Shown here piece after piece: positions 3,182 to 56,939 of a DNA stretch of 58,198 nt. Numbering within the stretch: position 1 is the stretch's first letter; each line of letters starts with the position of its first letter. Made by a program: the position numbers and the translations under genes. Under the pieces are notes generated by a model. That model made no database searches and was not told the origin of the DNA. It saw nothing but the letters and a program-made list of their open reading frames with translations. This DNA comes from a virus: positions 1 to 58,198 of the IMG/VR virus record IMGVR_UViG_3300020215_000057, one strand, 5' to 3'.

Positions 3182-3237
3182 ATAGAGGCGTATATAACTG
3201 CGCGAATATATGCGTTAGTATATAACGGGAGGTAAAC

Positions 3238-3339
3238 ATGGACACATGCTGGTTCTGCAAACGCCCATTGAATGAGTGCGAGTGCCCGAAGGTGGCCAAG
3301 ACGAATTATGCGAAATCTAACGCGCCCAATAAACGCTAA
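3238..3339 (+). CDS. 33-aa zinc-knuckle peptide, conserved in both clusters
   Basis: It starts MDTCWFCKRPLNECEC, with a CxxC and a CxC typical of a minimal metal knuckle. A GGGAGG ribosome binding site lies 6 bp upstream. The first 25 residues are identical to the peptide at 42337-42444, while the last few differ. That protein-level conservation, with several silent base changes, supports a real gene despite the size. Confidence 0.7.
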   Translation: MDTCWFCKRPLNECECPKVAKTNYAKSNAPNKR

Positions 3340-4403: not shown

Positions 4404-4714
4404 TGGGCCCACAGGCCGAGAGCCCAGAGGGCCGTATGTGGGGCGCTGTTATCATGACGGCCTTTCATGACGCGAAAGTGGTTATGGAAACGGCAAAGAT
4501 TGATATTGATCTTAGGGGTAAAGTTTCCCGCCAAACAAAGAGAGAGTTTCAGGTTTTGCACCGCGAGATTTCACACTCTCATTTTGCCGACATTTGCTCC
4601 TTCATGGGTGTCGCTCACGATAGGTTTTTAAAATCATTTTACAAGGAGATGGAAAAGGCTGGGCTAAAGCTTTCAGACTTTTATTCCATTATTCCGAAAG
4701 CGGGGGCGCTTTGA
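4403..4714 (+). CDS. hypothetical protein upstream of the methyltransferase
   Basis: A 103-aa mainly helical protein. There is one candidate helix-turn-helix-like region (residues 50-90), but I cannot name the family. It is coupled to both neighbours by overlaps. An internal ATG (MTAFHD) is an alternative start. Confidence 0.55.
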   Translation: MGPQAESPEGRMWGAVIMTAFHDAKVVMETAKIDIDLRGKVSRQTKREFQVLHREISHSHFADICSFMGVAHDRFLKSFYKEMEKAGLKLSDFYSIIPKAGAL

Positions 4715-5928
4715 GTTTAGAACATAATGATAAAATCGTGTGGGTTGACGTTAAAAAACTAAAGCCCAATCCAAACAACAGAAACAAGCACCCTGAGAGC
4801 CAAATCGACGAGATTGTAAAACAGATAAAATACCAGGGTTGGCGCCACGCAATTGTTGTAAGCAATCAATCAGGATTTATCGCCGCCGGCCACGGACGCT
4901 TGCTCGCGGCCCGCAAAATGGATCTTAAAAAAGTCCCGGTTGTTTATCAGGATTTCACCGACGCCGAGCAAGAGTATGCCTTTGGTGTGGCGGATAACGC
5001 TATTGCGGCGCGGGCAGAGCTTGATTTGCCGGCCATTAATTTTGATGTCGCTGATTTGGGGCCTGATTTTGATATTTCGCTTTTGGGGATTGAGGATTTC
5101 GTAGTTGAGCCCGCCGACAAATACGCGGACCAAGACGCAGACAGTGTGCCGGAAAATGTTAAAGCGGTCGCGAAACTCGGCGATATATATCAGCTTGGCC
5201 CGCATCGCTTGATGTGCGGGGACTCGACGGACCATGCGACGGTTGAGACGTTGATGGCGGGCGAGAAGGCGGATCTATACCTGACCGATTGCCCCTATGG
5301 GGTGAGCATGGAGGCTCGCGAGAAATCATCATCATCATGGGTGAACAAAGACCGCGTACATTCAAAAATTGAAAACGACGACAGGCCGCTTAGTGAAATG
5401 AAAATATTTTGGACCGAGGTCGCGAGCGCCGCAATCGCAAACTGCACCGACGAGGCCTCGTATTACTGGTTTGCGTGCCAAGGCGGGGATCAGATGATGA
5501 TGATGATGGCTCTCGGCGACGCGGGATGGGCTGTCAAGCACGAATTGATTTGGCTGAAAGATCAAATGTGTTTTGGACGCGCCGACTATCACTATAAACA
5601 CGAACCAATAATTTACGGATGGAAGCGAAAAGGAAAGCACAATTGGTTTTCGGACAGGAAGCAAACCTCAGTTTTAGAATTTGCTCGCCCAAAGAAGTCA
5701 GACCTCCATCCGACAATGAAGCCGGTTGAATTGCTTGAATATCTTCTCGGCAATTCGTCAAAGTCCGGCCACAAGGTTTTAGACACCTTCGGCGGCTCAG
5801 GCTCAACGCTGATCGCCTGCGAAAAAACAAACCGCAAATGCTTCATGATGGAACTAGATCCCCACTACGTTGATGTTATCATTGCGCGCTGGGAGAAGTT
5901 CACAGGGCAAAAGGCTAAAAAGCTGTGA
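4711..5928 (+). CDS. ParB-like domain fused to a DNA methyltransferase
   Basis: A 405-aa protein with a TTG start that overlaps the upstream stop. Residues 8-100 form a ParB/sulfiredoxin-like domain, including the GHGR motif at 60-63. Residues 160-400 are an amino-methyltransferase of the beta order: catalytic DCPY at 193-196 comes before the AdoMet-binding DTFGGSGST at 358-366, and HPTMKPVEL follows at 333. The DPPY proline is Cys here, which the family tolerates. Such fusions are common orphan phage methylases, probably protecting packaged DNA or altering host regulation. No cognate endonuclease is adjacent. Confidence 0.9.
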   Translation: MSLEHNDKIVWVDVKKLKPNPNNRNKHPESQIDEIVKQIKYQGWRHAIVVSNQSGFIAAGHGRLLAARKMDLKKVPVVYQDFTDAEQEYAFGVADNAIAARAELDLPAINFDVADLGPDFDISLLGIEDFVVEPADKYADQDADSVPENVKAVAKLGDIYQLGPHRLMCGDSTDHATVETLMAGEKADLYLTDCPYGVSMEAREKSSSSWVNKDRVHSKIENDDRPLSEMKIFWTEVASAAIANCTDEASYYWFACQGGDQMMMMMALGDAGWAVKHELIWLKDQMCFGRADYHYKHEPIIYGWKRKGKHNWFSDRKQTSVLEFARPKKSDLHPTMKPVELLEYLLGNSSKSGHKVLDTFGGSGSTLIACEKTNRKCFMMELDPHYVDVIIARWEKFTGQKAKKL

Positions 5929-6350: not shown

Positions 6351-6586
6351 CGCAAGAACAAATTGAAATGGTAGAGGCTTTTTTAAAGACGGCGAACCCT
6401 GAAATTGAAGTTTTGTCTATCAAAACGGAACGCAACACCGACCGTGGGCCTAAGGCCCCAAAGTTTCTCACTGAAATTGTAGTAAAAGATCCCGCCCATA
6501 AAAAACCGTATGTAGTTAAAAAGAACAGCCTCGCTGTTTTCAGAGCAATGAAACAAATCGCACGCAAGCCCCGCGCGGAAACATGA
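6347..6586 (+). CDS. small hypothetical protein between terminase genes
   Basis: A 79-aa basic protein, strand-rich in the second half (FLTEIVVKDPAHKKPYVVKK). It overlaps both neighbours by 4 bp. No family recognised. It may be a packaging accessory by position only. Confidence 0.6.
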   Translation: MTQEQIEMVEAFLKTANPEIEVLSIKTERNTDRGPKAPKFLTEIVVKDPAHKKPYVVKKNSLAVFRAMKQIARKPRAET

Positions 6587-8091
6587 TCTGCTCCTCGCTC
6601 ACCCGCGAACAATCAAACGCGCTTTACTTAGAAGTGCTAGCGGACCAGGACACGGCGGCACTGCGCGACCTATGCCAAAATGATTTGTTCTTTTTACTCA
6701 CCATGGGCTGTAAGCGTAAGGACATTGATAAAGATTGGCTTTACGACAGGTGCCGCGAAGTCGAGGCGAATCCAGACGGGTTTTTAGACCTGTGGGCGAG
6801 AGAACACTATAAAAGCACCGTCATAACTTTTGGCCTTTCAATTCAAAACATTCTAAAAGACCCTGACGTCACAATCGGTATTTTCTCGCACACAAGGCCC
6901 ATCGCTAAGGGTTTCTTAGGCCAAATTAAAACGGAGCTTGAGCAGAACACATTCCTTAAAAAACTATTTCCCGACATTTTATATGAAAACCCTAAGGGCG
7001 AATCGCCAAAATGGAGTTTAGATTCAGGCCTTAGGGTAAAGCGCCTCACAAACCCCAAAGAGGAAACTGTCGAGGCGTGGGGTTTAGTTGACGGCCAGCC
7101 CACATCGAAGCATTTTAAAATCCTGCTTTACGATGACGTTGTGACCCGCGAATCGGTGACTACGCCTGAGCAAATCAAAAAAACGACCGAGGCGACAGAG
7201 CTTTCCTTTAACTTAGGCGCCCAGGGCGGAAAGCGCAGGTTCATTGGCACCCGTTACCACGCAAACGACACGTATCGCACGATCATGGATCGAGGCACTG
7301 CGACCGCGCGGCTTAAGCCCGCCACACATAACGGCAAAATGGACGGCGAGCCCGTGTTCTTTTCTAAAGAATTACTCATGGAAAAGCGCCGCGATATGGG
7401 CCCGTATACTTTTGGCTCACAGATGCTTCAGGACCCGGTCGCTGATAAGGCGATGGGGTTTAAGTCCGATTGGCTGAAATATTATGAGGACCTTGGCCCG
7501 ACCGAAGACTGGAACAAATATTTAATTGTCGATCCGGCCTCAAAGAAAAAGAAAACCTCAGACTATACGGTAATGAAAGTCATTGGGCTTGCGCCAGATG
7601 CTAACTATTATTTGATCGATGCCATTCGCGACAGGCTGAATCTCACCCAAAGAGCCAAGCGCCTGTTTGAACTACACCGCAAGCACCGCCCGCTTGACGT
7701 GGGCTATGAAGAATACGGAATGCAGGCCGATATTGAACACATGCTTTATATGATGGAGCAGGAAAAGTACCGCTTTAATATTACACCGCTTGGCGGGCAG
7801 GTCGCAAAAGAGGACCGTATTAAAACGCTCATTCCGAAGTTTGAACAGCGCCGCATTTATCTCCCAAAGCATTTACACTTTGTCGATTACGAGGGGAAAG
7901 CTCAGGACTATGTTCAAACTTTCGTTGACGATGAATACTTGAATTTCCCCGTCTGTATTCATGACGACATGCTGGACTGCATGGCGCGCATCTTAGACCC
8001 GGCGCTTGACGCTAAATTCCCCGAGCAGAAAAAACCACAGGCCGAGGCCCCACGCCGATACGACGGCAACGGCCAAGGATGGATGGGCTAG
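6583..8091 (+). CDS. terL: phage A terminase large subunit
   Basis: A 502-aa two-domain packaging motor. The N-terminal ATPase has a Walker A-like REHYKST (73-79), of the variant lacking the usual GxxxxGK, and a Walker B LLYDD at 181-185. The C-terminal RNase H-like nuclease has the first Asp in LIVDPAS (317), an acidic GYEEYG region near 383-388, and HDDMLDC near 470. It cleaves concatemeric DNA and drives it into the procapsid through the portal encoded next. Length is usual for the family. Confidence 0.95.
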   Translation: MICSSLTREQSNALYLEVLADQDTAALRDLCQNDLFFLLTMGCKRKDIDKDWLYDRCREVEANPDGFLDLWAREHYKSTVITFGLSIQNILKDPDVTIGIFSHTRPIAKGFLGQIKTELEQNTFLKKLFPDILYENPKGESPKWSLDSGLRVKRLTNPKEETVEAWGLVDGQPTSKHFKILLYDDVVTRESVTTPEQIKKTTEATELSFNLGAQGGKRRFIGTRYHANDTYRTIMDRGTATARLKPATHNGKMDGEPVFFSKELLMEKRRDMGPYTFGSQMLQDPVADKAMGFKSDWLKYYEDLGPTEDWNKYLIVDPASKKKKTSDYTVMKVIGLAPDANYYLIDAIRDRLNLTQRAKRLFELHRKHRPLDVGYEEYGMQADIEHMLYMMEQEKYRFNITPLGGQVAKEDRIKTLIPKFEQRRIYLPKHLHFVDYEGKAQDYVQTFVDDEYLNFPVCIHDDMLDCMARILDPALDAKFPEQKKPQAEAPRRYDGNGQGWMG

Positions 8092-8141
8092 ACCTTTTAC
8101 ATTTTGTAAACTTAGCTTAAACATTTTTACAGCCTCAAAAT
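8092..8141 (+). promoter_or_regulatory. short gap with TTTACA-TTT-TGTAAA inverted repeat
   Basis: This is the only gap inside the packaging-to-head operon. It holds a perfect 6-bp inverted repeat with a 3-bp spacer at 8096-8110 and a second ACATTTTTACA at 8121-8131. It is possibly an operator or a secondary promoter for the portal operon. Confidence 0.35.
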
Positions 8142-10289
8142 TTGGCTGTGGCCCACACAAATTCCGATAATACCGAAAGCTCTCAAGAAGAGAAAGACGA
8201 AACGTCGCACGCCGAAAATCTCATTGAGACGGCAAAGAAGCGATTTCAATTAGCGGTTGATGCTGAAAGCGAAATCAGAACCGCAGCGCTTGAAGATCTT
8301 AGATTTTCCATAGGCGAACAGTGGCCTGAAAACATAAAAGCCGACCGCGAAACTCAGCGCAGACCCACTCTCACCATCAATCGCCTTCCACAATTCATTA
8401 GACAGGTCACAAACGATCAGCGCCAAAACCGCCCATCCATAAAAGTGTCACCCGTTGATAACGGTGCTGATCCCGATAGCGCTAAAGTCCGCCAAGGGCT
8501 AATCCGTCACATTGAATACTCCTCTAATGCCGACGTGGCCTATGACGTGGCCTTTGATGGCGCGGTCCGAAAGGGCCTGGGCTATTTCCGTATCACGACG
8601 GAATACTGCGACCCGCTGAGCTTTGATCAGGACATTAAAATCAAGGCCGTTCCCGATTCGTTTTTAGTTTATCTAGATCCGTTTTCTCAAGAGCCAGACG
8701 GCAGTGACGCCAATTGGGGTTTTGTTTTTGAGGACGTAAACGAGGACGACTACAAAGCGCAGTATCCAGGGACCAAGCTCACAAAAGAAAGCGACTGGTC
8801 CTCTCTTGGCGATACGTCAGGCTGGATCAAGGAAAAGTCCGCCCGAATTGCCGAGTATTTTTACAAAGAATTTAAGTCCGTCAAAATCTTTCAAATGTCT
8901 GACGGCTCAGTCGTTCGCGATGACGACGAGGCTGGAAAGCAAATGGCCGCGGCCAATATGCTTCAAATCAAAAACGAGCGCACCGCCATGCTCCCCGTTG
9001 TCCATTGGGCGAAGATCAATGGCCTTGAGGTTTTAGACGAAAAGGAATGGGCGGGCTCTTATATCCCAATCATTCCGGTCTATGGGGACCGCATCTTCAT
9101 TGACGGTAAAAAGGTCCTTGAGGGCATAGTCCGCCACGCAAAAGATCCGCAAAGAATGCTCAACTACTGGGAAAGCGCGAAAACAGAGACTATCGCTCTT
9201 GCGCCGAAAGCCCCCTGGATTATCGCAGGCTCACAAATCAAGGGCTATGAGAAAATGTGGGAGACGGCGAACACAGAAAACTATTCCGCTCTCATCTATA
9301 ACGCTCAGTCTTTAAATAATACTCCACTCCCACCTCCACAGAGAAATTCATACGAGCCGCCAGTGCAGGCCATGACCATGGCGCTTCGTGAATCAGGCGA
9401 GCACTTGAAAGAAACCACCGGCGTCTACGACGCTGCGATGGGGGCGAAATCAAACGAAACCTCAGGTGTCGCGATTCAGCGCCGAAGCCAGCAGGCTCAG
9501 ACTTCAAACTTCCATTTCGTCGATAACCTTTCGCGCTCTTTAAGACACGCCGGGCGCATAATTTTAGAGCTTATTCCAAAGATCTACGACACCGAACGTG
9601 CCGTTAGAATCATTGGCGAGGACGATAGTGAAGAAATAAAAATAGTAAATCAAATTGTTGATCCTGAAACAAACGGGCCAGGGATCAATCTTTCCTCAGG
9701 CAAATACGACATTATTGTTCAAACAGGCCCAAGCTATGCGACGAAGCGCCAAGAGGCCGCTGAGCACATGCTTGAGTTTATCAAGGTGTTCCCCGCCGCC
9801 GCTCAAGTGGTGGGCGACCTTGTGGCGAAGAACTTAGATTTCCCTGGTGCTGGCGATTTCCAAGAGCGCCTTAAGGCTATGGTGCCGCCTGAGTATATCA
9901 AGGACAAAAAGAAGCCCGAAGTAGATCCAGAAATGCAGGCGCAGCTTCAGCAGATGCAACAAATGGTTGATCAGCTCACTGAACAACTAAACCTAAAAAC
10001 CTCACAAATTGAAACTAAGACTTTAGAGCTTGAATCTAAAGAGCGCATCGAAATGGCGAAACTCCAAGTCGTCGTTGAAACGAAACTCGCCGAGCTTGGC
10101 GCAAAAGAGGGCATGTTCGCCCTTCAGCAAGAGATTGCTCAGATTGAAAATCGTCTGAATCTCTTGAATCAAAATCAACCAATCCAAAATCAAAATCAAG
10201 GCGCGGGACCTTCTGAGCCCATGGCGCCTGAGCAAGTTCAAGAACAACAACCTGCTGGCGGATTCTCGCCTGGCGGAATGGAGTACTAA
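8142..10289 (+). CDS. phage A portal protein (P22 gp1 type)
   Basis: A 715-aa protein forming the dodecameric ring at the packaging vertex. The body (residues 30-560) has features of the P22-like portal family, including the early ERETQRRPTLTINRLPQFIR block and the VTNDQRQNRPSIKV motif. The C-terminal 120 residues are a long Gln/Glu coiled coil with an NQN repeat and a GGFSPGGMEY tail, fitting the helical barrel. The start is TTG at 8142; a GTG two codons later is an alternative. It precedes the scaffold gene with a one-base overlap. Confidence 0.93.
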   Translation: MAVAHTNSDNTESSQEEKDETSHAENLIETAKKRFQLAVDAESEIRTAALEDLRFSIGEQWPENIKADRETQRRPTLTINRLPQFIRQVTNDQRQNRPSIKVSPVDNGADPDSAKVRQGLIRHIEYSSNADVAYDVAFDGAVRKGLGYFRITTEYCDPLSFDQDIKIKAVPDSFLVYLDPFSQEPDGSDANWGFVFEDVNEDDYKAQYPGTKLTKESDWSSLGDTSGWIKEKSARIAEYFYKEFKSVKIFQMSDGSVVRDDDEAGKQMAAANMLQIKNERTAMLPVVHWAKINGLEVLDEKEWAGSYIPIIPVYGDRIFIDGKKVLEGIVRHAKDPQRMLNYWESAKTETIALAPKAPWIIAGSQIKGYEKMWETANTENYSALIYNAQSLNNTPLPPPQRNSYEPPVQAMTMALRESGEHLKETTGVYDAAMGAKSNETSGVAIQRRSQQAQTSNFHFVDNLSRSLRHAGRIILELIPKIYDTERAVRIIGEDDSEEIKIVNQIVDPETNGPGINLSSGKYDIIVQTGPSYATKRQEAAEHMLEFIKVFPAAAQVVGDLVAKNLDFPGAGDFQERLKAMVPPEYIKDKKKPEVDPEMQAQLQQMQQMVDQLTEQLNLKTSQIETKTLELESKERIEMAKLQVVVETKLAELGAKEGMFALQQEIAQIENRLNLLNQNQPIQNQNQGAGPSEPMAPEQVQEQQPAGGFSPGGMEY

Positions 10290-16366: not shown

Positions 16367-16836
16367 TGAATCAAATCATGTGTCCCATAATTTTAAGAGA
16401 GAAAATCCAAAAGCTAGAGGATGAAATCCTTCAAAGCCCGAACGCGCTTGATCCGAAAAGCCTAAAGACCGTTCATTATTTGGCAAAAGGGCTTTACGCC
16501 CGCGAGCTAACTATCCCTAAAAACTACATGCTGACGGGAATGGTTCATAAGTGCGAGCACATAAATATTATTTCTAAGGGTCGCATTTTAGTTCTCACCG
16601 AGGACGGGCCCAAAGAGATTGTTGCGCCATGCACTTTGATTTCAAAGCCCGGCATAAAGCGCGTGGGCTTGGCGCTTGAGGAAACCGTTTGGACGACAAT
16701 TCACGCTAATGTCACAGATGAAACGGAAATTGAAAAACTAGAGCAGGAGTTAGTCGTCGATACATACGAGGACTACGAGAAATATTTATTAGGCAAAGAG
16801 CCACAGGAGGGCGAATGTCTTTTGTCAAGGCCGTAA
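16366..16836 (+). CDS. cupin-like tail-region protein
   Basis: A 156-aa protein. The central part (GMVHKCEHINIISKGRILVL followed by a KEIVAPCTLISKPGIKRVG stretch) looks like a small double-stranded beta-helix, with His 62 and later residues where metal ligands could lie. Similar proteins accompany ejection genes in other podoviruses. No catalytic role can be claimed. It overlaps the next gene by 22 bp. Confidence 0.55.
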   Translation: MNQIMCPIILREKIQKLEDEILQSPNALDPKSLKTVHYLAKGLYARELTIPKNYMLTGMVHKCEHINIISKGRILVLTEDGPKEIVAPCTLISKPGIKRVGLALEETVWTTIHANVTDETEIEKLEQELVVDTYEDYEKYLLGKEPQEGECLLSRP

Positions 16837-17918
16837 CCACGGTCGTACAGGCCGATCAGAGCAAAAAACAGGGTAAGCGTATGGAAAACGCTGCCAACTA
16901 TTCAAACCTAACCCAATCCCAGCAGTATCAACAACAGCGCGATGACCTTGAGCCGTGGCGCCAGGCCGGCGGGAATGCGCTCGGAGATTTGATGGCGGGC
17001 TTCGGACACAAGGCCCCGGAATTGGGGGAAAATTACGGCCTCAACGACCAAGAAATTCAGCTCGCAAATAATTACAAAATGCTTTTAGAAAAATCACCCG
17101 CCGCGAACGACAAAAATAGTTATTTCGCAAAAACCTGGGGCGCTGAGCTTGAAAAGCTCACTAAAAAGAGTGAGGAGGCGAAGCGCCTTGCCACACCAAC
17201 AACAACGACTGAAGAAAACTATTTCAATAAAGATTTCTCCATGGCCGATTTTGAAAAAGATCCAGGCTATGCGTTTCGCTTAGCCGAGGGCCAGAAAGCT
17301 CTAGAAAGATCCGCCGCCGCCCGTGGTGGACGAAACTCCGGCGGCACGATGAAGGCCCTTCAAGCTCACGGCCAGGGCATGGCAAGTGAAGAATACGCAA
17401 ACGCCTTCAATCGCTATAATGCTAATCGCGACTCTCGATATAACCGCCTTGCGAACCTAGCGGGAATGGGACAGGTCGCAACTCAACAGGTCGGCCAAGC
17501 CGGTCAAAACTACGCCAATCAGTATTCAAACAACCTGATGGGCGGCGCGAACGCTCGGGCGGCGGGAAGCATCGCCGGCACAAACGCATTTACAAACTTC
17601 GCAAAGGAAACAGAAGAGAACGCGGCAAAGGCGGCTGGGTTTGTGTACTGTGACGAGCGCCTAAAGGAGAACATTTCTGACGTTTCGCCAGAAGATTTCG
17701 CGGAGCTAGCTGAGGCGATCAAGCCAAAAATGTTCACGTATAAAAACGGTGAGCATGGCGTTGGTCAGTTTGTCGGGCCGATGGCTCAGGACATTGAACA
17801 CACGAAACTCGGGAAAACTCTCGTTTATGAAAATTCACAGGGCCAGAAAGTCCTCGATCAAGAAAAAGTCTTGATGCTTCTCTTGGCGCAACTTGGGAGC
17901 AAAAAATCATGCCACTAG
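16815..17918 (+). CDS. DNA ejection protein with C-terminal S74-like chaperone domain
   Basis: A 367-aa protein. The first 240 residues are helical, Gln/Asn/Ala-rich, and include DFEKDPGYAFRLAEGQKALE, a motif of virion pilot proteins. From residue 276 it reads YCDERLKENI, matching the start of the S74 intramolecular chaperone domain, in which the cleaved protein normally has Ser where this one has Cys. A conserved YKNG and QDIE segment follow. It should be carried in the capsid and leave with the DNA. Confidence 0.7.
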   Translation: MSFVKAVTTVVQADQSKKQGKRMENAANYSNLTQSQQYQQQRDDLEPWRQAGGNALGDLMAGFGHKAPELGENYGLNDQEIQLANNYKMLLEKSPAANDKNSYFAKTWGAELEKLTKKSEEAKRLATPTTTTEENYFNKDFSMADFEKDPGYAFRLAEGQKALERSAAARGGRNSGGTMKALQAHGQGMASEEYANAFNRYNANRDSRYNRLANLAGMGQVATQQVGQAGQNYANQYSNNLMGGANARAAGSIAGTNAFTNFAKETEENAAKAAGFVYCDERLKENISDVSPEDFAELAEAIKPKMFTYKNGEHGVGQFVGPMAQDIEHTKLGKTLVYENSQGQKVLDQEKVLMLLLAQLGSKKSCH

Positions 17919-39688: not shown

Positions 39689-40017
39689 GCGAATATAAGC
39701 AGGGTGATATTGTGAGGTCGTGTGGCGCGAAGATGGTAATCGTTGCCGATCATCCGGTAAACAAAGGTGGGTATTATGGGCTCTATTTACCAAATGATAA
39801 ACTGACGGTTAATCAAAAGCTTTCCGTTCAATTCATTCATCCCGACGATATTGATGGCCCCTGGCGCGAGCCTTTGCGGGCGGAGTTTGAAACCGAATGG
39901 AGTGAAGCGGTTCTTGATAGCGGCGCTAGAATTATTATGCCCGGATCCTCAGGGCCAGGGGGGCTTTATCAATTCGTTGGCAAACGAACCCGCGTAACAG
40001 TGGAAGAAATTTTATGA
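39685..40017 (+). CDS. small cluster 2 protein, full-length copy
   Basis: A 110-aa protein. The C-terminal 26 residues are identical to the fragment at 1-90. Its N-terminus (YKQGDIVRSCGAKMVIVADH) suggests a small beta-barrel like the YodC-like family. It starts cluster 2. Function unknown. Confidence 0.65.
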   Translation: MSEYKQGDIVRSCGAKMVIVADHPVNKGGYYGLYLPNDKLTVNQKLSVQFIHPDDIDGPWREPLRAEFETEWSEAVLDSGARIIMPGSSGPGGLYQFVGKRTRVTVEEIL

Positions 40018-40048
40018 CCGACCTAGAAGAGCTATTGAAATCGGCGAG
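39935..40048. repeat. near-identical direct repeat with 8-121
   Basis: Second copy of the 114-bp repeat (one mismatch). It spans the end of one gene and the start of the next, so the duplication unit includes whole genes. Confidence 0.9.
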
Positions 40049-40286
40049 CAAGGATAAAAAGGGCGAGGCCGCAGCGCTTTTGCTTGAACAGTTTAACTTT
40101 TGGAACAATGAAAACAAAATGCTCATCGGTGGCGACATAGACATGGCCATTCTCTACGCCATGCGTGCGCGCGACAATGAGCTCGAAACCTACCACGAGC
40201 TTAAGGGCACCGTGGGGGACTCGGGCGAACAGCTTCAAGATATGAATCATGAGATTAGAAAGATACTGGAGACGTCCGATGAGTGA
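40014..40286 (+). CDS. small acidic cluster protein, paralog of 87-359
   Basis: A 90-aa protein similar throughout to the product of 87-359. Differences cluster in the first 50 residues; the last 39 match almost fully. Retention of frame and length in both copies implies function. It overlaps the next gene by 8 bp. Confidence 0.75.
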   Translation: MTDLEELLKSASKDKKGEAAALLLEQFNFWNNENKMLIGGDIDMAILYAMRARDNELETYHELKGTVGDSGEQLQDMNHEIRKILETSDE

Positions 40287-40527
40287 GCACGATATTGCTG
40301 TTTTAGTGGATGAGGTTAAGCGCCTTCGGGCTCGCATTTCTGAGCTTGAGGTAGGCATTGATAACGGCTACAAGTGCGCGCAGATAGTCCGCGAGCAAAC
40401 GGCGCTGCTGCGCGAAGCGATTACGATGATTGAAAAATACCGCATGGGGTTTGCGCCAGAGTACGAAATGTCTATCGCCTTTACAGAGCACGTTACCGCC
40501 GCCCTCGGCTCGCGGGATGGTGTGTGA
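40279..40527 (+). CDS. fusion-like cluster protein
   Basis: An 82-aa protein. Residues 1-25 (MSEHDIAVLVDEVKRLRARI) match the start of the 67-aa protein at 352-555. Residues 38-78 (REQTALLREAITMIEKYRMG and on) match the end of the 175-aa protein at 653-1180. In cluster 1 these are two genes with a TM peptide between them; here they form one frame. Confidence 0.75.
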   Translation: MSEHDIAVLVDEVKRLRARISELEVGIDNGYKCAQIVREQTALLREAITMIEKYRMGFAPEYEMSIAFTEHVTAALGSRDGV

Positions 40528-40763
40528 TGTCTAAATTTGGTCAAGGATATATTTGCGCGTGTACAACCCTCGCGCAGTTAGAGGGCGGCACCAACACGAA
40601 TGTTGAAGAGATGCTAGAAGCTGGCGGCTATACGACTATTGGCAAACTTCGAAAGGCTGGAGCCGAGGATTTTGATGTCAAATATTTGAGGGCAGCAATT
40701 AGAAACATAATGCGGCGGCGCTCTTATAAAAAACCAAATCCGACGGGAGGCGCAAGTGACTAG
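40527..40763 (+). CDS. small cluster 2 protein without paralog
   Basis: A 78-aa protein starting MSKFGQGYICACTTLAQLEG. The middle (EAGGYTTIGKLRKAGAEDFD) has a helix-hairpin-like look. It is not found in cluster 1. A GTG one codon upstream is an alternative start. Overlaps both neighbours. Confidence 0.55.
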   Translation: MSKFGQGYICACTTLAQLEGGTNTNVEEMLEAGGYTTIGKLRKAGAEDFDVKYLRAAIRNIMRRRSYKKPNPTGGASD

Positions 40764-41244
40764 ATGTTGTGTCCCTGGTTGTATGAATTTTTATCATGGA
40801 TATCGGCCGAGCGAATTATGTAATGAGCATGGCGGGGGTTATGGCAATGAGCGGGACCAACAACCCCCCGCGCCGCCGATAACGCCGCTCATGGCTGAGG
40901 TGCTAAACGAGATGGCGAACAGTAATGCAGAGCCGCCGACCGGCCAGAGTGAGGCTGTTGCTCGCCCTATTTACGACGAGCTTGTAGCTCGCGCCGACCG
41001 CCTTGAGCTTCGCGTGAAGGAACTGGACCAATACCTTGATGCTCAATGCCGCATAGGAATGGAATATAAAGACAAAATCGCGGCGCTTTCGGACGACAAT
41101 GAAAAGCTGCGTTCCGCCATTGAGCGCGTTGAGGCAAGAGTAAAATTCTGGCTAAGTTTGTCGGCCATGTCCATTTCCTCGCAGGGGTACGCATTTGCGA
41201 AGGACATTAATAAAGCCCTCGGGCGCGCAACGGAGGAGACATGA
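40756..41244 (+). CDS. zinc-knuckle plus coiled-coil cluster protein, paralog of 1379-2071
   Basis: A 162-aa protein with GTG start. The Cys-rich N-terminus (CCVPGCMNFYHGYRPSELCN) differs from that of the 230-aa paralog, but the Pro-rich linker, EPPTGQ, the coiled-coil blocks and the final ALGRATEE are shared. The head has been exchanged while the shaft was kept. Function unknown. Confidence 0.65.
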   Translation: MTRCCVPGCMNFYHGYRPSELCNEHGGGYGNERDQQPPAPPITPLMAEVLNEMANSNAEPPTGQSEAVARPIYDELVARADRLELRVKELDQYLDAQCRIGMEYKDKIAALSDDNEKLRSAIERVEARVKFWLSLSAMSISSQGYAFAKDINKALGRATEET

Positions 41245-41477
41245 AAGTATTTATTTTAAGGTGGACGCTTGGACTGTTTTTTCACTTACTCAATAAAACC
41301 ATGCCGAAATGTCGGTGTTGTAAATATTTTTGTGACCCGGGAATATACCGCTGGGATGGAAATTATTATTGCATGATGTGTGGGGCGGGCGACAAACAGC
41401 CACTTGGCTTTATTAAAAAGCTGTGGCTCACGATAACATTCGAGCATAAGCGCTGGAAATGGACGAGGCTCACATGA
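41241..41477 (+). CDS. small protein with zinc ribbon and hydrophobic N-terminus
   Basis: A 78-aa protein. Residues 1-18 are hydrophobic (MKVFILRWTLGLFFHLLN), then CRCC and CMMC form a zinc ribbon. It lacks a close match in cluster 1. Overlaps both neighbours by 4 bp. Confidence 0.55.
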   Translation: MKVFILRWTLGLFFHLLNKTMPKCRCCKYFCDPGIYRWDGNYYCMMCGAGDKQPLGFIKKLWLTITFEHKRWKWTRLT

Positions 41478-41791
41478 CCACCCCTGAGCGCCCGGCGAGG
41501 GAGTTTTGGATAGATCTTGCAATGGCCCATGGCGACCCCTATGACTTTGTTAGCGAGGGCGAACCTCATGATCATCCGAGCTCAACCAATATCCATGTAA
41601 TAGAATATGAGCCCGTCATGCGCTTGCTTGAGAAGGCGCTGGAGGTATTGGATGATGCAAAGAAAAAGCTCGAGGTTTATTATGATCAGACGAGCGGCGA
41701 ATACGCGGGCGGCCCAGAGAGCAGTAGGTTGATTTCGCAAATCCGCGCCACGGCGGAACGGCTGAGGAAATTTATGGGAGGCCAGAAGTGA
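41474..41791 (+). CDS. fusion-like cluster protein (second case)
   Basis: A 105-aa protein. The first ten residues (MTTPERPARE) match the start of the protein at 2478-2723. The body (FWIDLAMA at the start, YEPVMRLLEKALEVL in the middle) matches the protein at 2720-3007. In cluster 1 these are two adjacent genes, so this one looks like their in-frame joint. Confidence 0.7.
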   Translation: MTTPERPAREFWIDLAMAHGDPYDFVSEGEPHDHPSSTNIHVIEYEPVMRLLEKALEVLDDAKKKLEVYYDQTSGEYAGGPESSRLISQIRATAERLRKFMGGQK

Positions 41792-42018
41792 TTTATCCGA
41801 ACGCGGGCGCCGAAGAATGGGCCGAAAAACACAGTCTTCCTATTGTGGATTATCTTTGTCCGAAGTGTCGGGAAACTTTTAAAACGGATATTCCTTTTAT
41901 CATGAAGGACCTTGTGGGCCTTGAATCTAGAAAACACGAGTGCGGTCCAAACTACATGACAGCGGTAATGAGGCCAAGGAGTACTGAAGATATAAAATGG
42001 TTTGATAAATTAATTTAA
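41788..42018 (+). CDS. small zinc-ribbon protein ending cluster 2
   Basis: A 76-aa protein, GTG start. LCPKCRETF and a later C-G-P form a half or full zinc ribbon. It overlaps the upstream gene by 4 bp. The structured RNA begins in its stop region. Confidence 0.55.
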   Translation: MIYPNAGAEEWAEKHSLPIVDYLCPKCRETFKTDIPFIMKDLVGLESRKHECGPNYMTAVMRPRSTEDIKWFDKLI

Positions 42019-42276
42019 ACCCGCGTCGTCTGCGGCGTGGAAAGCTGTGGTAGCGGATTGATCGGCCAACGTAGCTTGATCATGACTGAAATAGGTTCGC
42101 CACTGGAGACACGCAGAGTTTGGCTATAGCGTGCATGCGAAAGCCATCTTGAACGTTGCAACAAATAGCCGTTCAGCCAGAGTCGCGACTGGCCATGCGG
42201 TGATAGGGTTTTCCCGCAAGGGTTGGTTCTAGAAACGGTGCGACCGGTCCGGAGCCAGCCCGAGCGGGGTTTTTAT
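42017..42276 (+). ncRNA. structured intergenic RNA element C
   Basis: No good frame in 42019-42336. AAACCCGC (42017-42024) can pair with GCGGGGTTT (42264-42272, one bulge), enclosing the element and ending at a T run. Internal blocks GTGGTAGC, GGCCAA, TGGAGACACGC, AGCCAGAG and AGTCGCG match element B at 32682-32870 in the same order, with varied spacers. The last 25 or so bases match the end of element A at 3030-3181. Conserved blocks with changing spacers are typical of a structured RNA. Confidence 0.65.
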
Positions 42277-42300
42277 CCGCCAAGGTGAGAGTGGCGGAAA

Positions 42301-42326
42301 TAGCGTATGTACGCTAAAGTGTACAT
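42301..42326. promoter_or_regulatory. palindrome TAGCGTA-TG-TACGCTA and a TGTACA site
   Basis: A perfect 7-bp inverted repeat at 42301-42316 is followed by TGTACA at 42321-42326, the same hexamer as the phage A switch operators. It lies just before the ATG at 42337. A possible operator for the small zinc-knuckle gene. Confidence 0.4.
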
Positions 42327-42336
42327 GGAGGTTTCG

Positions 42337-42444
42337 ATGGACACATGCTGGTTCTGCAAGCGCCCCTTGAATGAGTGCGAGTGCCCGAAGGTGGCGAAAA
42401 CGAATTATGCGCGAACGCTGTCACACAAAAGAAAACAAGTCTAG
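42337..42444 (+). CDS. 35-aa zinc-knuckle peptide, paralog of 3238-3339
   Basis: The first 25 residues (MDTCWFCKRPLNECECPKVA and on) equal those of the 33-aa peptide at 3238, with silent DNA changes; the tails differ. GGAGG lies upstream. It is the last gene of cluster 2. Directly after it the phage B sequence begins. Confidence 0.7.
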   Translation: MDTCWFCKRPLNECECPKVAKTNYARTLSHKRKQV

Positions 42445-46271: not shown

Positions 46272-46530
46272 CCACGTAGCGATCGAGCTCCGAATATAAA
46301 CACTCCATCAAATACTGGCGCTCCTGGATGTCAGCGACATGGTAGAGCATCTTCATATAATCCACAGGCAGCGTATGCTGACCGAGTTCAATCTGTGCGA
46401 TGAAGGAATTACTCACGCCAATGAGGCCCGCGAGATCACGCTGTGAGAGCCCACGATGCGCTCTAAACCACTTAGAGAAGAACACGATACCCTTAGGCTC
46501 ATTGCTTATTTTTTGTTTCTTAGCTGCCAT
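46264..46530 (-). CDS. XRE-family HTH regulator of phage B
   Basis: An 88-aa protein; I use the internal start MAAKKQKISN. LSQRDLAGLIGVSNSFIAQI is a clear HTH_3. It overlaps the integrase gene by 11 bp in the same leftward operon. It is a candidate for the protein that recognises the 20-bp sites, though its gene is far from most of them. Confidence 0.75.
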   Translation of the reverse strand: MAAKKQKISNEPKGIVFFSKWFRAHRGLSQRDLAGLIGVSNSFIAQIELGQHTLPVDYMKMLYHVADIQERQYLMECLYSELDRYVAT

Positions 46531-47053
46531 AGACCCCCCCAACAAAGAGTTTCTTAAGCTCTTCAACCTTATAAACATACGAGGAATAAACCAAGGTATT
46601 GTTAATATTGCGGTGCCCCAAAGCGAACTGCACGAGCCTGATATCTCGGTGGCGTTTGAATAATTCTATAGCAAAGGTGTGCCTTAGTTTATGGAGAGAC
46701 TTATCGCCAAGCCTGAAGTTCTGCCAGATCTGTCGGAACCTGCGCGTAGAGATTGGAAACAGAAGGTCGTTTGAACCGATACGGTTTTCACCCAAATAGC
46801 TTTTCAGGCGCTTCGCTAGTGAATCAGTCAGTGGTAGCTCTCGACTATCTGAGCCCTTAGCACCCCTAATAAAGATCATTTTGTCAGCCAGGTTTATATC
46901 ACTACCGATGGTTTGACTGATCTCTTCCTGACGAGCGCCAGTGAACAGCAATAGCTCTACAATCAACGCATCACGATCGCGCCTGGTAGAGAGTAGGGTG
47001 GTGAGTTCTTTTAATTCTGAGGCGTTTAAGTGGCTATCCTTATTGAGAGGCAT
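46520..47053 (-). CDS. int: short tyrosine recombinase of phage B
   Basis: A 177-aa protein containing only the catalytic domain: R41 (GARQEE), K66, H121-x-x-R124 (HKLRH), H147 (LGHRN) and Y156 (LVYSSY). No separate N-terminal core-binding domain is seen, a feature of FimB-like or truncated integrases. It could integrate phage B or act on an invertible segment. No attachment site was found nearby. Confidence 0.8.
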   Translation of the reverse strand: MPLNKDSHLNASELKELTTLLSTRRDRDALIVELLLFTGARQEEISQTIGSDINLADKMIFIRGAKGSDSRELPLTDSLAKRLKSYLGENRIGSNDLLFPISTRRFRQIWQNFRLGDKSLHKLRHTFAIELFKRHRDIRLVQFALGHRNINNTLVYSSYVYKVEELKKLFVGGVYGS

Positions 47054-51113: not shown

Positions 51114-51779
51114 GTGAATTCCTTAACTCACCAAATCGATCTGACGGCACTGCAATCCCTCGAGCAAGATCAGGTAGCTGACTTCCTGCCCTCGATCATC
51201 CGTGAGCGTGTGAACGCGATCCCCTCTGAAATCTACGATATGCCCTTCGAAGCTCTCGAGCGCAAGCTCTCAGTCGATGGCCATGTGCCTATTGAGCTCT
51301 CACGCGTTCGTATAGCCTTCTGGCTCGAATTTGAGCGAGCAAGCCGCACAGGCATACCCTTCTCTCTCGCCGCCGTCTGTGGAGGCGTTATGGGGCTCTC
51401 AAAGCTTCAGAAGGAAGTCCTAGCGAATTCCTATCGCCTGGCCTACATAATCACGCCACCGCCGTCCTATGCGCTCGTAATGGACGAGTTCCTCCACTAT
51501 GGCCTTCAGCTTCAGCGCGAGATCCTAAACATGCCACATGTAAACCCTAAGAACGGGCGCACTGACACCGCCATGCTTAGCCTCAAGAACAAGATCATCG
51601 AAGGCATCCATAACCGAGTTAAGGGAATGCCGACCTCAAAGAGCGTACATATCCAAAAACAGCTTGGCGAGGGTGAACTTATAAACCCAGCGGGCGATAT
51701 TAAGGAAATCGACGCCAAGATCGCAGAGCTCGAATCAAGCGAGAAGGAAGTGAAGTCCTTACGGCGAGGCGAATCGTGA
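51114..51779 (+). CDS. phage B small terminase-like protein
   Basis: A 221-aa protein with GTG start, 15 nt after operator site 5. Central helices (FWLEFERASRTGIPFSLAAV) and a coiled C-terminus suggest a DNA-binding ring protein. It is the first gene of the head operon, which supports the small-terminase role, but no diagnostic motif is seen. The lipid desaturase gene follows. Confidence 0.5.
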   Translation: MNSLTHQIDLTALQSLEQDQVADFLPSIIRERVNAIPSEIYDMPFEALERKLSVDGHVPIELSRVRIAFWLEFERASRTGIPFSLAAVCGGVMGLSKLQKEVLANSYRLAYIITPPPSYALVMDEFLHYGLQLQREILNMPHVNPKNGRTDTAMLSLKNKIIEGIHNRVKGMPTSKSVHIQKQLGEGELINPAGDIKEIDAKIAELESSEKEVKSLRRGES

Positions 51780-52315
51780 GCGTGATCCTAACCATCCTCT
51801 CCGCATGGCTACTCGCTGACTTTCTCTCAGGCCTATTCCATTGGTACGAAGATCGCCTGCTGATCGAGCCATCGCGATTCAAGCTTATCGAGCAAATAAG
51901 AATCGATAACGAACTTCACCATGTCCAGCCCTACGCGATGACAAGGCTTCCGTGGGTAGACAATATTTACCAATCGGTATATGTAGCTTCTCCAGTTTCT
52001 CTTTGTTTAAGCCTTGCCGGCGCGCCGGTTGTTATCTCTTTGGCGATTCTCTTCCTAGGCTTCGCTAACCTCGTCCATCGCTGGGCGCACATTCATCCAA
52101 AGAAACTTAATCGATTCATTAGATTCATGCAGTCGCTGGGACTTTTTATCTGCTTCGATCATCACAATTCTCACCACTTCTCTGAAGGCACTGGCCGCAT
52201 TACTAAAGAAAACTCAACCTCTCACTACTGCGTTATGACCTGCTGGCTAAATCCGATCTTAGACAGAATTCGATTCTTTAAATTCCTAGAGCTTATATTC
52301 ATGAGGCGTAAATGA
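51776..52315 (+). CDS. Kua/CarF/PEDS1-type lipid desaturase
   Basis: A 179-aa membrane protein with at least three hydrophobic stretches. The family frame is visible end to end: LADFLSGLFHW (13-23), NELHHVQPYAMTR (45-57), NLVHRWAH (98-105), FDHHNSHH (127-134), STSHYCVMTCWLNPILDRI (147-165). About eleven His match the di-metal site layout. In animals (TMEM189) and Myxococcus (CarF) this family puts the vinyl-ether double bond into plasmalogens. It overlaps the small terminase gene by 4 bp and is short for the family but has the whole core. Confidence 0.88.
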   Translation: MSVILTILSAWLLADFLSGLFHWYEDRLLIEPSRFKLIEQIRIDNELHHVQPYAMTRLPWVDNIYQSVYVASPVSLCLSLAGAPVVISLAILFLGFANLVHRWAHIHPKKLNRFIRFMQSLGLFICFDHHNSHHFSEGTGRITKENSTSHYCVMTCWLNPILDRIRFFKFLELIFMRRK

Positions 52316-52461
52316 CCAATCTACAATTCTTCGCAATCATCATGGCTCTAGCTGTGATCGCAGCGAACACTTACGAAAATGACGAAATCATGCAGTTCAC
52401 CTGGCGAGGGATCTCCTGGGCCTCGTGCTTCTGCCTAGCCTACGAGGTTCTAGCTATATGA
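52312..52461 (+). CDS. 49-aa membrane peptide
   Basis: ATGA-type overlap at both ends. MTNLQFFAIIMALAVIAANT gives one TM, and a second weaker one lies near WASCFCLAYEVLA. It directly follows the desaturase, so it may be a partner or just another small membrane peptide. Confidence 0.5.
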   Translation: MTNLQFFAIIMALAVIAANTYENDEIMQFTWRGISWASCFCLAYEVLAI

Positions 52462-52733
52462 CACCAGAAGAAGTAACAAAGCTTGAGAGCTATATTAAAA
52501 CCCTACCCTTCATTTGGCCGATCGCCATGATTGCGATCTATCCGAACAAGATGGGTAATTACTTCTTTCAAAACGCGCCTAAGTTCTTTGTCGATATAAC
52601 GCTCGAGTGCCCTGAGACAAAGAAAACCATGGTTATCCAAAAGAACGCCAAGGACTTGCTACGAAAGATCAACCAACACGAAAAATACAAACACCTCAAG
52701 GATGAAGTGAATGAGACGAAACAAGAGAGTTAG
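52458..52733 (+). CDS. small hypothetical protein
   Basis: A 91-aa protein starting MTPEEVTKLESYIKTLPFIW, overlapping upstream by 4 bp. Its middle (KKTMVIQKNAKDLLRKINQH) is basic. Function unknown. It overlaps the next gene by 23 bp. Confidence 0.55.
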   Translation: MTPEEVTKLESYIKTLPFIWPIAMIAIYPNKMGNYFFQNAPKFFVDITLECPETKKTMVIQKNAKDLLRKINQHEKYKHLKDEVNETKQES

Positions 52734-52956
52734 AAATAAAACTGCCTGCATTGGTTTATTCAGCAAAAAGCGCCAGCTTGAGGCGCTCACTCAGCACATC
52801 AATGAATTGGTGCGTGAGCTCGATCACAGGTTCCAGATGTACGCGAAAGCTAACGTCTCACCGCGCGAGATGCTCTGTCGTTTAGCTTCGCTTCGCCGTG
52901 AGATCGATCAGTCCTTCATTAGAGCCCGAGAGCTTGAGGCGAGCCAAATCCATTGA
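52711..52956 (+). CDS. small basic coiled-coil protein
   Basis: An 81-aa basic protein, helical throughout (QLEALTQHINELVRELDHRF). It precedes and overlaps the large terminase by 4 bp. It may be the true small subunit of the packaging motor, an alternative to the gene at 51114. Confidence 0.55.
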   Translation: MRRNKRVRNKTACIGLFSKKRQLEALTQHINELVRELDHRFQMYAKANVSPREMLCRLASLRREIDQSFIRARELEASQIH

Positions 52957-54470
52957 ATAATTCTAGAGAGTACGCCGCTAAACTTAAAAAGCTTCAGCTC
53001 CTAGAGCAGCGCGAGAAGATGCGCTTTGAACTTCCGCACCTCTATGGCTTTCCATTATACAGTTGGGCTGAGGAGTTCATTTACTCTGATGGCGGTCCAG
53101 GGCGCATGCTCCTGCTCTGTGCTGCGAATCAGGTGTCAAAGAGCAGTACTCTCATCCGAAAGAACATCACACTCGCCACTGATAAAACCCTCTGGCCTAG
53201 GTTCTTCCCACGGCGTGAGCCCATGACCTTCTGGTACGTCTATCCTGACGAGAATAAGATCGAGGAAGAGTTCAGAGATAAGTGGGTGCCTGAGTTCCTA
53301 CCGCGCGGAACGATGAAGGATGACCCTATCTATGGCTGGCGAGAAGTTAGATCCAAGCAAGGCAAGCTTAGTGTGCATTTCAATAGCGGCGTTGTAATCG
53401 CCTTTAAAACCTGGAAGTCAGATCTTCAGTCAGGAACCTTAGACATGGTTTCAGTCGATGAGGAACTGCCAGCGAAGCTATACCCGGAGCTTGCGCTGAG
53501 ACTTTCCAGATACGCCGGGATTTTCGCGATGGTGTTTACAGCGACCTTGAATCAAGATTTCTGGTTTCGTGCGATCGAACAGCGCGGTAAAAAAGATGAG
53601 ACCTTCGTTCATGCGAAGAAGTGGCAAATATCCATGGAGCATGATTGTAAGGTCTATGCTGATGGATCGCCAAGCCCATGGACTGAGGAAGAAGTAAATC
53701 GCGTTAAGAACTCCTGCGGCTCTCAAACAGAGATTGATCGTAGGGTGCATGGCAGATTTGTGACTGAGGTTGGTGTGAAGTACTCAAGCTTCTCTCGTGA
53801 GAAGAACGTCAAACCCGCCTCGCCAACGCCCAAGGGCTGGCACTATTACTCAGGCGTTGATATCGGCTCAGGCGGAAAAAACCATAAGGCTGCGATAAGT
53901 ATCGTGGCGGTGAATCCCTCCTACACCTACGGAAAGCTCGTAAAGTTCTGGAAGGGTGATGAGTCACACGAGACCACCAACGATGACATCTTAGATAAAT
54001 ATAAAGAAATGACCGCCGATATTCCTGTCCTTGACTGTGAACAGTATGATCATCGGGCGCGTGATTTTTTCCTCACTGCGGAGCGAGCTGGCTTTTCATT
54101 TCAGAAGGCTAACAAGGACCACGGCGAGGATATGCTCAATATGCTCTTCAAGAACCAGATGCTGGATATTGAGGAGGGCGAGCTCACGGATGAGCTCGTT
54201 ATTGAGCTATCTACTCTCAGAGTGGATACAGCTAAGACCGTAGCGAAGGACGATGGCATTGATTCCCTCCGTTATGCAGTAAGTAGTGTTGAGTGGGATC
54301 TTTCCCGCATTCAATCAAACACGCTCATCGAGTTTAAAAAGCAGAGTCAAAAGAAAATAGAAACAAGCAATGAATCACATAGAGGCGATCCAACTCTTCA
54401 GCCTGAGCCCAACGAATGGGACTCAGATCAAGAGATCGACGACTGGAACGACCTACAAGGAGGTTTTTAA
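52953..54470 (+). CDS. terL: phage B terminase large subunit
   Basis: A 505-aa protein, TTG start. ATPase domain with Walker A-like AANQVSKSST (57-66) and Walker B MVSVDEE (164-170). Nuclease domain begins SGVDIGSGG (D302), with DCEQYDHRARDF and later DDGIDSLRYAV supplying further acids. It is of the same overall plan as the phage A enzyme but clearly a different branch. It precedes the portal gene. Confidence 0.93.
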   Translation: MNNSREYAAKLKKLQLLEQREKMRFELPHLYGFPLYSWAEEFIYSDGGPGRMLLLCAANQVSKSSTLIRKNITLATDKTLWPRFFPRREPMTFWYVYPDENKIEEEFRDKWVPEFLPRGTMKDDPIYGWREVRSKQGKLSVHFNSGVVIAFKTWKSDLQSGTLDMVSVDEELPAKLYPELALRLSRYAGIFAMVFTATLNQDFWFRAIEQRGKKDETFVHAKKWQISMEHDCKVYADGSPSPWTEEEVNRVKNSCGSQTEIDRRVHGRFVTEVGVKYSSFSREKNVKPASPTPKGWHYYSGVDIGSGGKNHKAAISIVAVNPSYTYGKLVKFWKGDESHETTNDDILDKYKEMTADIPVLDCEQYDHRARDFFLTAERAGFSFQKANKDHGEDMLNMLFKNQMLDIEEGELTDELVIELSTLRVDTAKTVAKDDGIDSLRYAVSSVEWDLSRIQSNTLIEFKKQSQKKIETSNESHRGDPTLQPEPNEWDSDQEIDDWNDLQGGF

Positions 54471-54778
54471 TGTCCACTGAAGCAAATGAAAGCGCAACTC
54501 AAATCGATCCACAGGCTCTGGTCTCTGTGATCGAAGCACTCGCCAAGGCTGGTGCCAGACATTTTAGTTGGGGAAATATGTCGATTGATTTCGTCGAAAA
54601 GCCCGCAACGCAAGAACTTCATATCGATATGGCCGAGCACATGAAGGAACAGAATAACGAATCTGAGTACGAAAAATTAATGAGAACGAGAAAAGAATAT
54701 CTAGAAGCGCAGGACGATGACCTGGTGATCACGGATCCAGAGGCATGGCTAGCGAAGGAGACCTCAGGTGGAAATTAA
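54470..54778 (+). CDS. small protein between terminase and portal
   Basis: A 102-aa acidic protein. AAGGAGG places the start at 54470. The first half (VSVIEALAKAGARHFSWGNM) is a short alpha/beta region, the second acidic helix. Common as a small connector-region gene; no named family. Confidence 0.6.
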   Translation: MSTEANESATQIDPQALVSVIEALAKAGARHFSWGNMSIDFVEKPATQELHIDMAEHMKEQNNESEYEKLMRTRKEYLEAQDDDLVITDPEAWLAKETSGGN

Positions 54779-56939
54779 ACTTAAAGAGCTTACGGAGCTT
54801 AACGAACTCTACGATCGCGCTGATATGACCGATAAGAAGGTCTTTGCTGAAATGAAAAGCAATATCCTTCTCATAAATAACGAGCATTATAAAAAGTATT
54901 CGACAAAGCTCGACGCTACACTGAGAAACGCTGGCGTTAGCAAAGATCGGCGCCTTCGCCTAACTAAGAACCACACGCAGAAGATCACCTCAGACATCAA
55001 GGATATCTTTGTTTCTCAGATGTCAGCCTTTAAGCCCTGCCCTCGTAACGAGAACGAGATGTCAGATTCAAAGGCCGCGGAGCTTGCAAACTCTGTATGG
55101 CAGTGGGGTAGTGAAAAGATCGAGTGGGATGATTTTGTCGATCGTGCGGTGAATAGCTTTGTCGATATTGGCGAGGTTGGCTCTAAGGTATTCTGGGATC
55201 CGAACGCTGGCGACATAAAGGGTTATAATCAAAAAGTAACGGCTGAGGGTTTGCCTCTATTTCAAACGCCAGATGGTCAGATTACAACTCAATCGCAAGA
55301 TCAGATGGGCCTTATCAAGTATGCGCCTTTAGCTGATAAATCAAAGCCTGTTTTTTCAGGGCGCCTTTTGGTTGAGCCGCTTTATTGCTTTAACCTTCTT
55401 CGCGATCCTTCAGCGCAGTTAATGAAGAATTCCCCTGTAGTGATTTATCGCCACATGAAGGATCTTAAGGCTGCAAAACTTTTGGCGAAGGATGAGGAGA
55501 CGAAGAATAAGGTCATCGAGAGTGCGAACCGCACCTATAAAATCTTCGATTCCACGAGCGGCGAGTTCTATGATTCTAAAAATCAAGTAATGATAAGGGA
55601 GTTTTACTATAGGCCATGTCACGAATATCCACGCGGTTATTTCTACATATGCACCGAGGATGCGATCCTCGATCATGGAGAAATACCCTTCGGTGATCTT
55701 GGTGAGATTGCCTTCCCTATTAAGCACACAGGCTACGACATTATTGAAACTAGCCCGCGCTATGCCTCGCCAATCAGACCACTACGCCCACTTCAGGCTG
55801 AGGTGAATCGCACGGCCTCGAGCGAAGCTGAAACACAGATCACTATGGGCCCAGATAAGGTGTTCCTCAAGGTCGGTGGCACGATCACTAAGGGTGCAGA
55901 GATGGCAGGGATGAGGGCCTATCACACCTCAGGGCCCGCGCCAACGGTTGTTCCTGGTCGTTCAGGCCAGCAGTATGTTGGAACTCTAGAGCGTGCGATT
56001 AGTGAAATGTACTTAATCGCAAAGCTCCCGGAGAACGCCAATCCTACGGCGAATGTCACCGATCCTAGAAGTGAGCTTTATAAGTCGGTTCGTCAGAAGG
56101 CTAGATTCTCGCGCCAACTTTCTCGTCTTGAGCGCTATTTCAAGTCCATCGTGAATACCTGGATATTCCTTGCTCAGAAGTATCTCGACGATCAGGAAGT
56201 GATCAAGGCCACTGGTAAGTCTGAGGCTGTGAACATTCCTGAGTTTAAGCAAATCGAATCAAGCGATTTGGCGATTAAGATCGAGCCCGTGAGTGGTGAT
56301 TACAACACCATGTTCGGAAAGTCCTTAGAGATCGAGATGATCGCGCAGTATCTGGGTAAAGATTTGCCAGATGATATGAAGGCCGCTTTAGTGCGAAGCC
56401 TACCGTTCATGAATAAGGAGCCTGTCATTCAGCAATTGATGACCCAGTACGATGCTCCGATGAACATGCTCTTGGCACTGGATCGTGGCGAGGATCATAT
56501 TCCTAATAAGTACTCTGATGAAACCGTAATGCTCAAAGCGCTTTACCTGAGACTTCAAAAAGCGGATTACGATCTTCTGCCGCCTGAGGTTCAGGCTAAG
56601 TACGCTGAAGTGATCACCGCCTATGAAGAGATCGCAGCGATGAAGGCTGAGGAAGCTCTTCGTTTACAGAAGGGTATGATCCCTACGGGCGGAAATCTCG
56701 TCAAGGTCGATTACTACATCATGGATGAAAACGGTAAGCAGATCCGCGGTACCTTCCCTTCTGAGTCGCTTGATTGGTTGAAAGAGACCATAGCAGCGCA
56801 GGGGATGGCACAAGAGCGCCTTGAACAAATGGCAAATTCTCAAGGCCTAGTCGATATCGGAAGCCAAGTTCCATCACTTAATGAACCTAATATGCAGCAA
56901 CAACAAATTCCAATGGAGGGAATGAATGGAAGTTTCTAA
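54768..56939 (+). CDS. phage B portal protein
   Basis: A 723-aa protein, GTG start. The layout (helical N-terminus, LTKNHTQKITSDIKDIFVSQ early, central beta wing, RSGQQYVGTLERAISEMYLI, Gln/Met-rich C-terminus) and position between the terminase and scaffold genes fit a podovirus portal. It is not close to the phage A portal. It forms the DNA channel. Confidence 0.85.
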   Translation: MEIKLKELTELNELYDRADMTDKKVFAEMKSNILLINNEHYKKYSTKLDATLRNAGVSKDRRLRLTKNHTQKITSDIKDIFVSQMSAFKPCPRNENEMSDSKAAELANSVWQWGSEKIEWDDFVDRAVNSFVDIGEVGSKVFWDPNAGDIKGYNQKVTAEGLPLFQTPDGQITTQSQDQMGLIKYAPLADKSKPVFSGRLLVEPLYCFNLLRDPSAQLMKNSPVVIYRHMKDLKAAKLLAKDEETKNKVIESANRTYKIFDSTSGEFYDSKNQVMIREFYYRPCHEYPRGYFYICTEDAILDHGEIPFGDLGEIAFPIKHTGYDIIETSPRYASPIRPLRPLQAEVNRTASSEAETQITMGPDKVFLKVGGTITKGAEMAGMRAYHTSGPAPTVVPGRSGQQYVGTLERAISEMYLIAKLPENANPTANVTDPRSELYKSVRQKARFSRQLSRLERYFKSIVNTWIFLAQKYLDDQEVIKATGKSEAVNIPEFKQIESSDLAIKIEPVSGDYNTMFGKSLEIEMIAQYLGKDLPDDMKAALVRSLPFMNKEPVIQQLMTQYDAPMNMLLALDRGEDHIPNKYSDETVMLKALYLRLQKADYDLLPPEVQAKYAEVITAYEEIAAMKAEEALRLQKGMIPTGGNLVKVDYYIMDENGKQIRGTFPSESLDWLKETIAAQGMAQERLEQMANSQGLVDIGSQVPSLNEPNMQQQQIPMEGMNGSF

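Follow-up and report, generated by a model that had tools for sequence, protein, structure and literature searches.

Tailed phages carry a real and apparently unreported branch of a known enzyme family, the lipid desaturases of PF10520. One of its genes was found in the window (the whole stretch of 58,198 nucleotides that was analysed), where it lies in the packaging operon of a tailed phage that we call phage B. The 179-aa product of this gene (51776..52315, plus strand, GTG start) matches Pfam PF10520 (Lipid_desat) at E=1.8e-25 and 90.5 bits, the gathering cut-off being 26.4 bits, over positions 1-164 of the 175 in the profile. The protein has no match to PF00487, PF10520 is its sole Pfam family at E up to 0.1, and a profile search against PHROG returned nothing. 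It is thus a real gene and a genuine member of PF10520, and the profile confirms the family frame that a first-pass annotation had read from the letters. The motifs behind that reading are present (A14-D-F-L-S-G-L-F-H22-W; N45-E-L-H48-H49-x-x-P52; N98-x-x-H101-x-W-x-H105; H129-H130-x-x-H133-H134; T-C-W-L-N159), except that the proline follows NELHH after two residues, and not after one as had been written.

The catalytic positions were compared using the published numbering of mouse PEDS1 (H96, D100, F118, H121, H122, H131, H187, H191, H215, H218 and H219; PMC8960569). The eight essential histidines of that enzyme (H96, 121, 122, 187, 191, 215, 218 and 219) align with H22, 48, 49, 101, 105, 130, 133 and 134 of the window protein, so the metal-binding set named in the earlier reading is complete, and the essential aspartate (D100, four residues after H96) is kept as D26, four residues after H22. 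Across 54 aligned homologues from phages and bacteria, 14 positions are invariant, including H22, E25, D26, N45, H48, H49, H101, H105, H133, H134, C152 and E172, while H130 is present in at least 90% of the sequences. The AlphaFold model built on this alignment (pLDDT 95, pTM 0.89) matches a lipid-desaturase-domain protein of Harvfovirus (A0A3G5A308, E=1.5e-5), which is also encoded by a virus and has a similar predicted fold (TM 0.72), but belongs to a giant virus of eukaryotes and is 20% identical. A search of PDB folds gave no significant match. The nearest related entries, themselves non-significant, are Scs7p hydroxylase domains, and the hydroxylase family FA_hydroxylase (PF04116) is also matched by 35 of the 54 homologues, at best with 1.6e-6. 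These similarities might point to a membrane di-iron enzyme that acts on lipids by a different chemistry, for instance by hydroxylating fatty acids or lipids, which we consider unlikely: PF10520 is matched by every member (54/54) and far more strongly (best 3.2e-43 vs 1.6e-6), and the characterised enzymes of this family, PEDS1, CarF and FAD4, are desaturases (PMC8960569).

The first-pass annotation was more specific, and proposed a protein of the CarF/PEDS1 (TMEM189) type that changes the ether lipids of the host. A true CarF/PEDS1 would convert ether lipids of the host into plasmalogens by forming their vinyl ether, and the window protein does share with these enzymes (PF10520, NF045946) the superfamily, the eight histidines and the essential aspartate, as well as a weak similarity to the CarF model. 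Yet the two residues that mark PEDS1 are missing. Phe118, three positions before HH, corresponds to Asn45, and in the mouse enzyme its replacement by alanine leaves 6% of the activity (PMC8960569). The histidine found only in PEDS1-type proteins (mouse H131, CarF H113, nine positions after the second histidine of HH) corresponds to Leu58. By its residues, the window protein belongs to an uncharacterised PF10520 class, here called N-type, whose marker is the asparagine at position 45 (N-x-x-HH), invariant in the 54 N-type homologues; the PEDS1-only histidine is also missing from the other aligned N-type homologues, and present in two sequences, L003 and L150. It has been reported in animals, myxobacteria and Leptospira, and as absent from plants and Alphaproteobacteria, whose homologues fail to complement a carF mutant (PMC9131029).

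Scores and phylogeny agree with the residues. The window protein obtains 49.6 bits with the NCBIfam equivalog model of CarF (NF045946), about a tenth of its cut-off of 500. In the tree, L150 (from an acidobacterial genome), L003 (from a huge phage) and L145 fall outside a group of 66 rows (100/95) to which the window protein belongs; L150 and L003 are the sequences with CarF-type positions, and they stand in for authentic CarF, which like FAD4 is not in the tree. The evidence for exclusion from CarF/PEDS1 thus consists of residue positions taken from the literature, the NF045946 score and the tree with these substitutes. On these three lines we reject plasmalogen synthesis by the window protein and find a true CarF/PEDS1 very improbable; the ether-lipid chemistry once proposed for it has no support. 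L003 deserves mention in its own right: this record (LR756511.1, 595 kb, uncultured phage) encodes at 7983-8441 a PF10520 protein that has PEDS1-type residues at both positions and scores 90.5 bits with the CarF model, and is a better candidate than the window gene for a true PEDS1 in a phage.

Other members of the family are more informative on function. PEDS1 and CarF produce vinyl ethers, and FAD4 desaturates acyl chains of phosphatidylglycerol (PMC8960569, PMC9131029). Plant FAD4 (PF10520), a trans-3 desaturase, is like the window protein in that it belongs to the superfamily, has the eight histidines and is without the PEDS1-only histidine, but by its published description it usually has an arginine at the H131 position (PMC9131029) where the window protein has Leu58. 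Alphaproteobacterial homologues of the Bradyrhizobium type have also been published as being without this histidine and unable to replace CarF, and are probably of the same broad class as the window protein, as judged from that description. Because the phage proteins are without the PEDS1 marks, desaturation of acyl lipids is the more plausible function. We think it somewhat probable that the window gene encodes a late phage N-type enzyme desaturating the acyl chains of host membrane phospholipids. Such a small integral-membrane di-iron protein, translated along with the other products of the packaging operon, would use O2 and electrons from host donors to introduce a double bond in these chains, by a chemistry resembling that of FAD4 on phosphatidylglycerol rather than the formation of the plasmalogen vinyl ether. 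Against this reading, the 7 kb of phage B that are present show neither an electron-donor gene nor a gene of lipid metabolism. The altered lipids might adapt the inner membrane to late steps of phage development, for example to membrane-protein insertion or the timing of lysis, or else might adjust the membrane to temperature and stress.

The position of the gene bears on when it would act. All main genes are oriented rightward from 51114 to the end of the contig. The operon starts with a 221-aa ORF (51114..51779, plus strand) that overlaps the desaturase gene by 4 nt (GTGA), and the latter overlaps by ATGA a 49-aa ORF (52312..52461, plus strand). Two small ORFs follow on the same strand, both below every Pfam and PHROG cut-off: one of 102 aa as listed (52425..52733), for which an alternative ATG at 52458 would give a 4-nt overlap with the 49-aa ORF, and one of 81 aa (52711..52956) that overlaps the start of the large terminase gene by 4 nt. 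The large terminase subunit (52953..54470, plus strand, 505 aa; phrog_2, E=1.4e-12) thus begins 638 nt 3' of the desaturase gene, with these three small ORFs in between. A 120-aa ORF separates it from an SU10-like portal protein of 723 aa (54768..56939, plus strand) identified by weak matches (PF23899 2.2e-5, below the cut-off; phrog_1216 0.0012), and the ORFs beyond the portal are taken for capsid genes by their position. A scan of the locus for promoters and terminators gave about as many sites as in shuffled sequences. Given the 4-nt overlaps on both sides and no such signal above chance, the desaturase gene is a member of the operon, and it is from this membership that we infer expression in the late phase of infection. 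Its composition (GC 0.461, third-position GC 0.528) resembles that of the phage B genes, such as the terminase (0.485 and 0.547).

Placement among packaging genes, as first annotated, therefore stands with regard to the large terminase and the overlapping neighbours, but not with regard to the small terminase proposed upstream. Neither Pfam nor PHROG gives a match for the 221-aa ORF, and its single-sequence model is poor (pLDDT 42), which leaves the latter label an unconfirmed guess. The short second membrane peptide described directly after the desaturase was found again as the 49-aa ORF, which is hydrophobic by reading of the sequence. In another phage of the same clade, L004, a 59-aa hydrophobic ORF (8552-8731) lies directly 3' of the desaturase gene and is comparable to the one in the window; the two are possibly a recurrent partner of the enzyme.

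Association with terminases recurs in other phages, a search suggested by the first-pass annotation. Terminases were mapped by phrog_2, phrog_38, phrog_3717 and Pfam in 20 viral contigs, and in six of these, Mu-like phages included, the desaturase gene lies upstream of the large terminase gene, in the same orientation and at most 1 kb away. The distance is 638 nt in the window, 454 nt in L004, 10 nt in L078 and 870 nt in L096/L116, where Gp27 lies between the two genes (isolate Sphingopyxis sp. H073); in L023 the genes are adjacent, and in L032 the desaturase gene comes directly after Mu Gp27 and the terminase frame is truncated. Random placement would give 0.43 contigs (P(6 or more)=1.5e-6), or, with clades as the unit, P(3 of 4 clades)=0.002, both being rough values for related and sometimes short contigs. 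The phrog_2 matches near the gene in L002, L044, L008 and probably L102 were assigned to the ATPase PhoH, and were not counted as terminases; in L002 the desaturase gene is found between PhoH and the portal. In L051 the desaturase and terminase genes are on opposite strands and 1.7 kb apart, in L007 the distance is 9.5 kb, and elsewhere it is large. A place next to the terminase is therefore frequent without being general. The Sphingopyxis sp. H073 isolate itself carries a Mu-like prophage (L116:7989-10960) with the PF10520 gene in the packaging operon, where it precedes Gp27 and the terminase.

This variation of the position, including the two different slots that the gene occupies in the same operon of Mu-like phages, is what one might expect of moron-type cargo, active and useful to the lysogen or host, and tolerated upstream of the terminase without a role in virion production. 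The integrase ORF near phage B (46520-47053), which may thus be temperate, also fits this possibility. However, no promoter or terminator signal above chance sets the desaturase gene apart, and its overlaps place it inside the operon, so that we regard simple cargo as distinctly unlikely. More tentatively than the acyl-lipid desaturase reading itself, we suggest that N-type PF10520 enzymes might serve phages specifically, as late desaturases of membrane lipids whose product is yet to be described, and be retained in the packaging operons of unrelated tailed phages because they prepare the inner membrane of the host for assembly or lysis.

N-type genes are far from restricted to the window. A first scan with the window protein alone as query gave 0 matches, and two alignment-based scans of viral contigs gave 85 and 92 confirmed stretches, many of them on overlapping contig sets. 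The window protein falls in a clade of five phages (100/98; window, L004, L005/L051, L006/L007 and L023), whose members are 39-48% identical to it and share about 9-10 inserted residues that follow HHxxHH; their nearest bacterial homologues are from Acidobacteriota, L115 and L151 (99/90). An alphaproteobacterial phage group includes Erythrobacter phage vB_EliS-L02, the Sphingopyxis prophage, L032, L062 and L044, and the other phage sequences form a 32-row group of viral contigs only, plus singles. No plasmid copies were found, and the genes are rare in bacteria, at about 1% of sampled genomes (5/398, 4/149 and 1/148 in three phyla, counts that include the query genome). One bacterial N-type gene (L119) adjoins a fatty acid desaturase gene of PF00487. 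The unconstrained tree has five changes of host type, and we do not claim separate acquisitions by phages, because the AU test does not reject a single clade of the phage sequences other than L003 (p-AU 0.17). Values of dN/dS of 0.07-0.36 in 12 homologue pairs, all from phage clades other than that of the window, which is too divergent for the estimate, show purifying selection on related phage copies.

We found no report of an activity for any N-type member, and none joining PF10520 and phages in the open literature, which was incompletely covered. What is known of how phages control the membrane lipids of their hosts comes mainly from cyanophage desaturases (Roitman 2018, cited in PMC11480375). 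These, and the desaturases of Arctic-brine viruses, which match stearoyl-CoA desaturase (PMC7300359), are phage-borne like the window gene but of another family. N-type PF10520 adds a second family of lipid-modifying enzymes, present in many tailed phages and often in or beside the packaging operon, and the copy in the Sphingopyxis sp. H073 prophage makes it testable which lipid bond is made and what a phage would gain from it late in infection.

The remainder of the contig shows two unrelated tailed phages placed end to end, a P22-like phage (4403-46271; TerL 6583-8091, portal 8142-10289, ejection protein 16815-17918) and phage B (51114-58198), for which no relatives were found by terminase or portal. 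Between them lies a minus-strand integrase/HTH module, and GC drops near 46 kb. Its tyrosine recombinase (46520-47053, minus strand, 177 aa) has the catalytic domain PF00589 only, and no N-terminal core-binding domain was seen. The arrangement corresponds to tandem prophages or to an assembly chimera. As the contig could be chimeric near 46 kb, one might suspect that the desaturase gene is an assembly artefact, or an inactive relic, which we find extremely unlikely: it overlaps its neighbours 5 kb inside phage B, and the full catalytic set is kept at 47% identity to the nearest phage relative. Early-region segments are repeated at 8-3312 and 39935-42411, in the same order, with 82-94% identity and about 39-40 kb apart. 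Finally, a fused ParB-like and DNA methyltransferase gene (4711-5928; phrog_498, 5.5e-128) is located just 5' of the terminase of the first phage.
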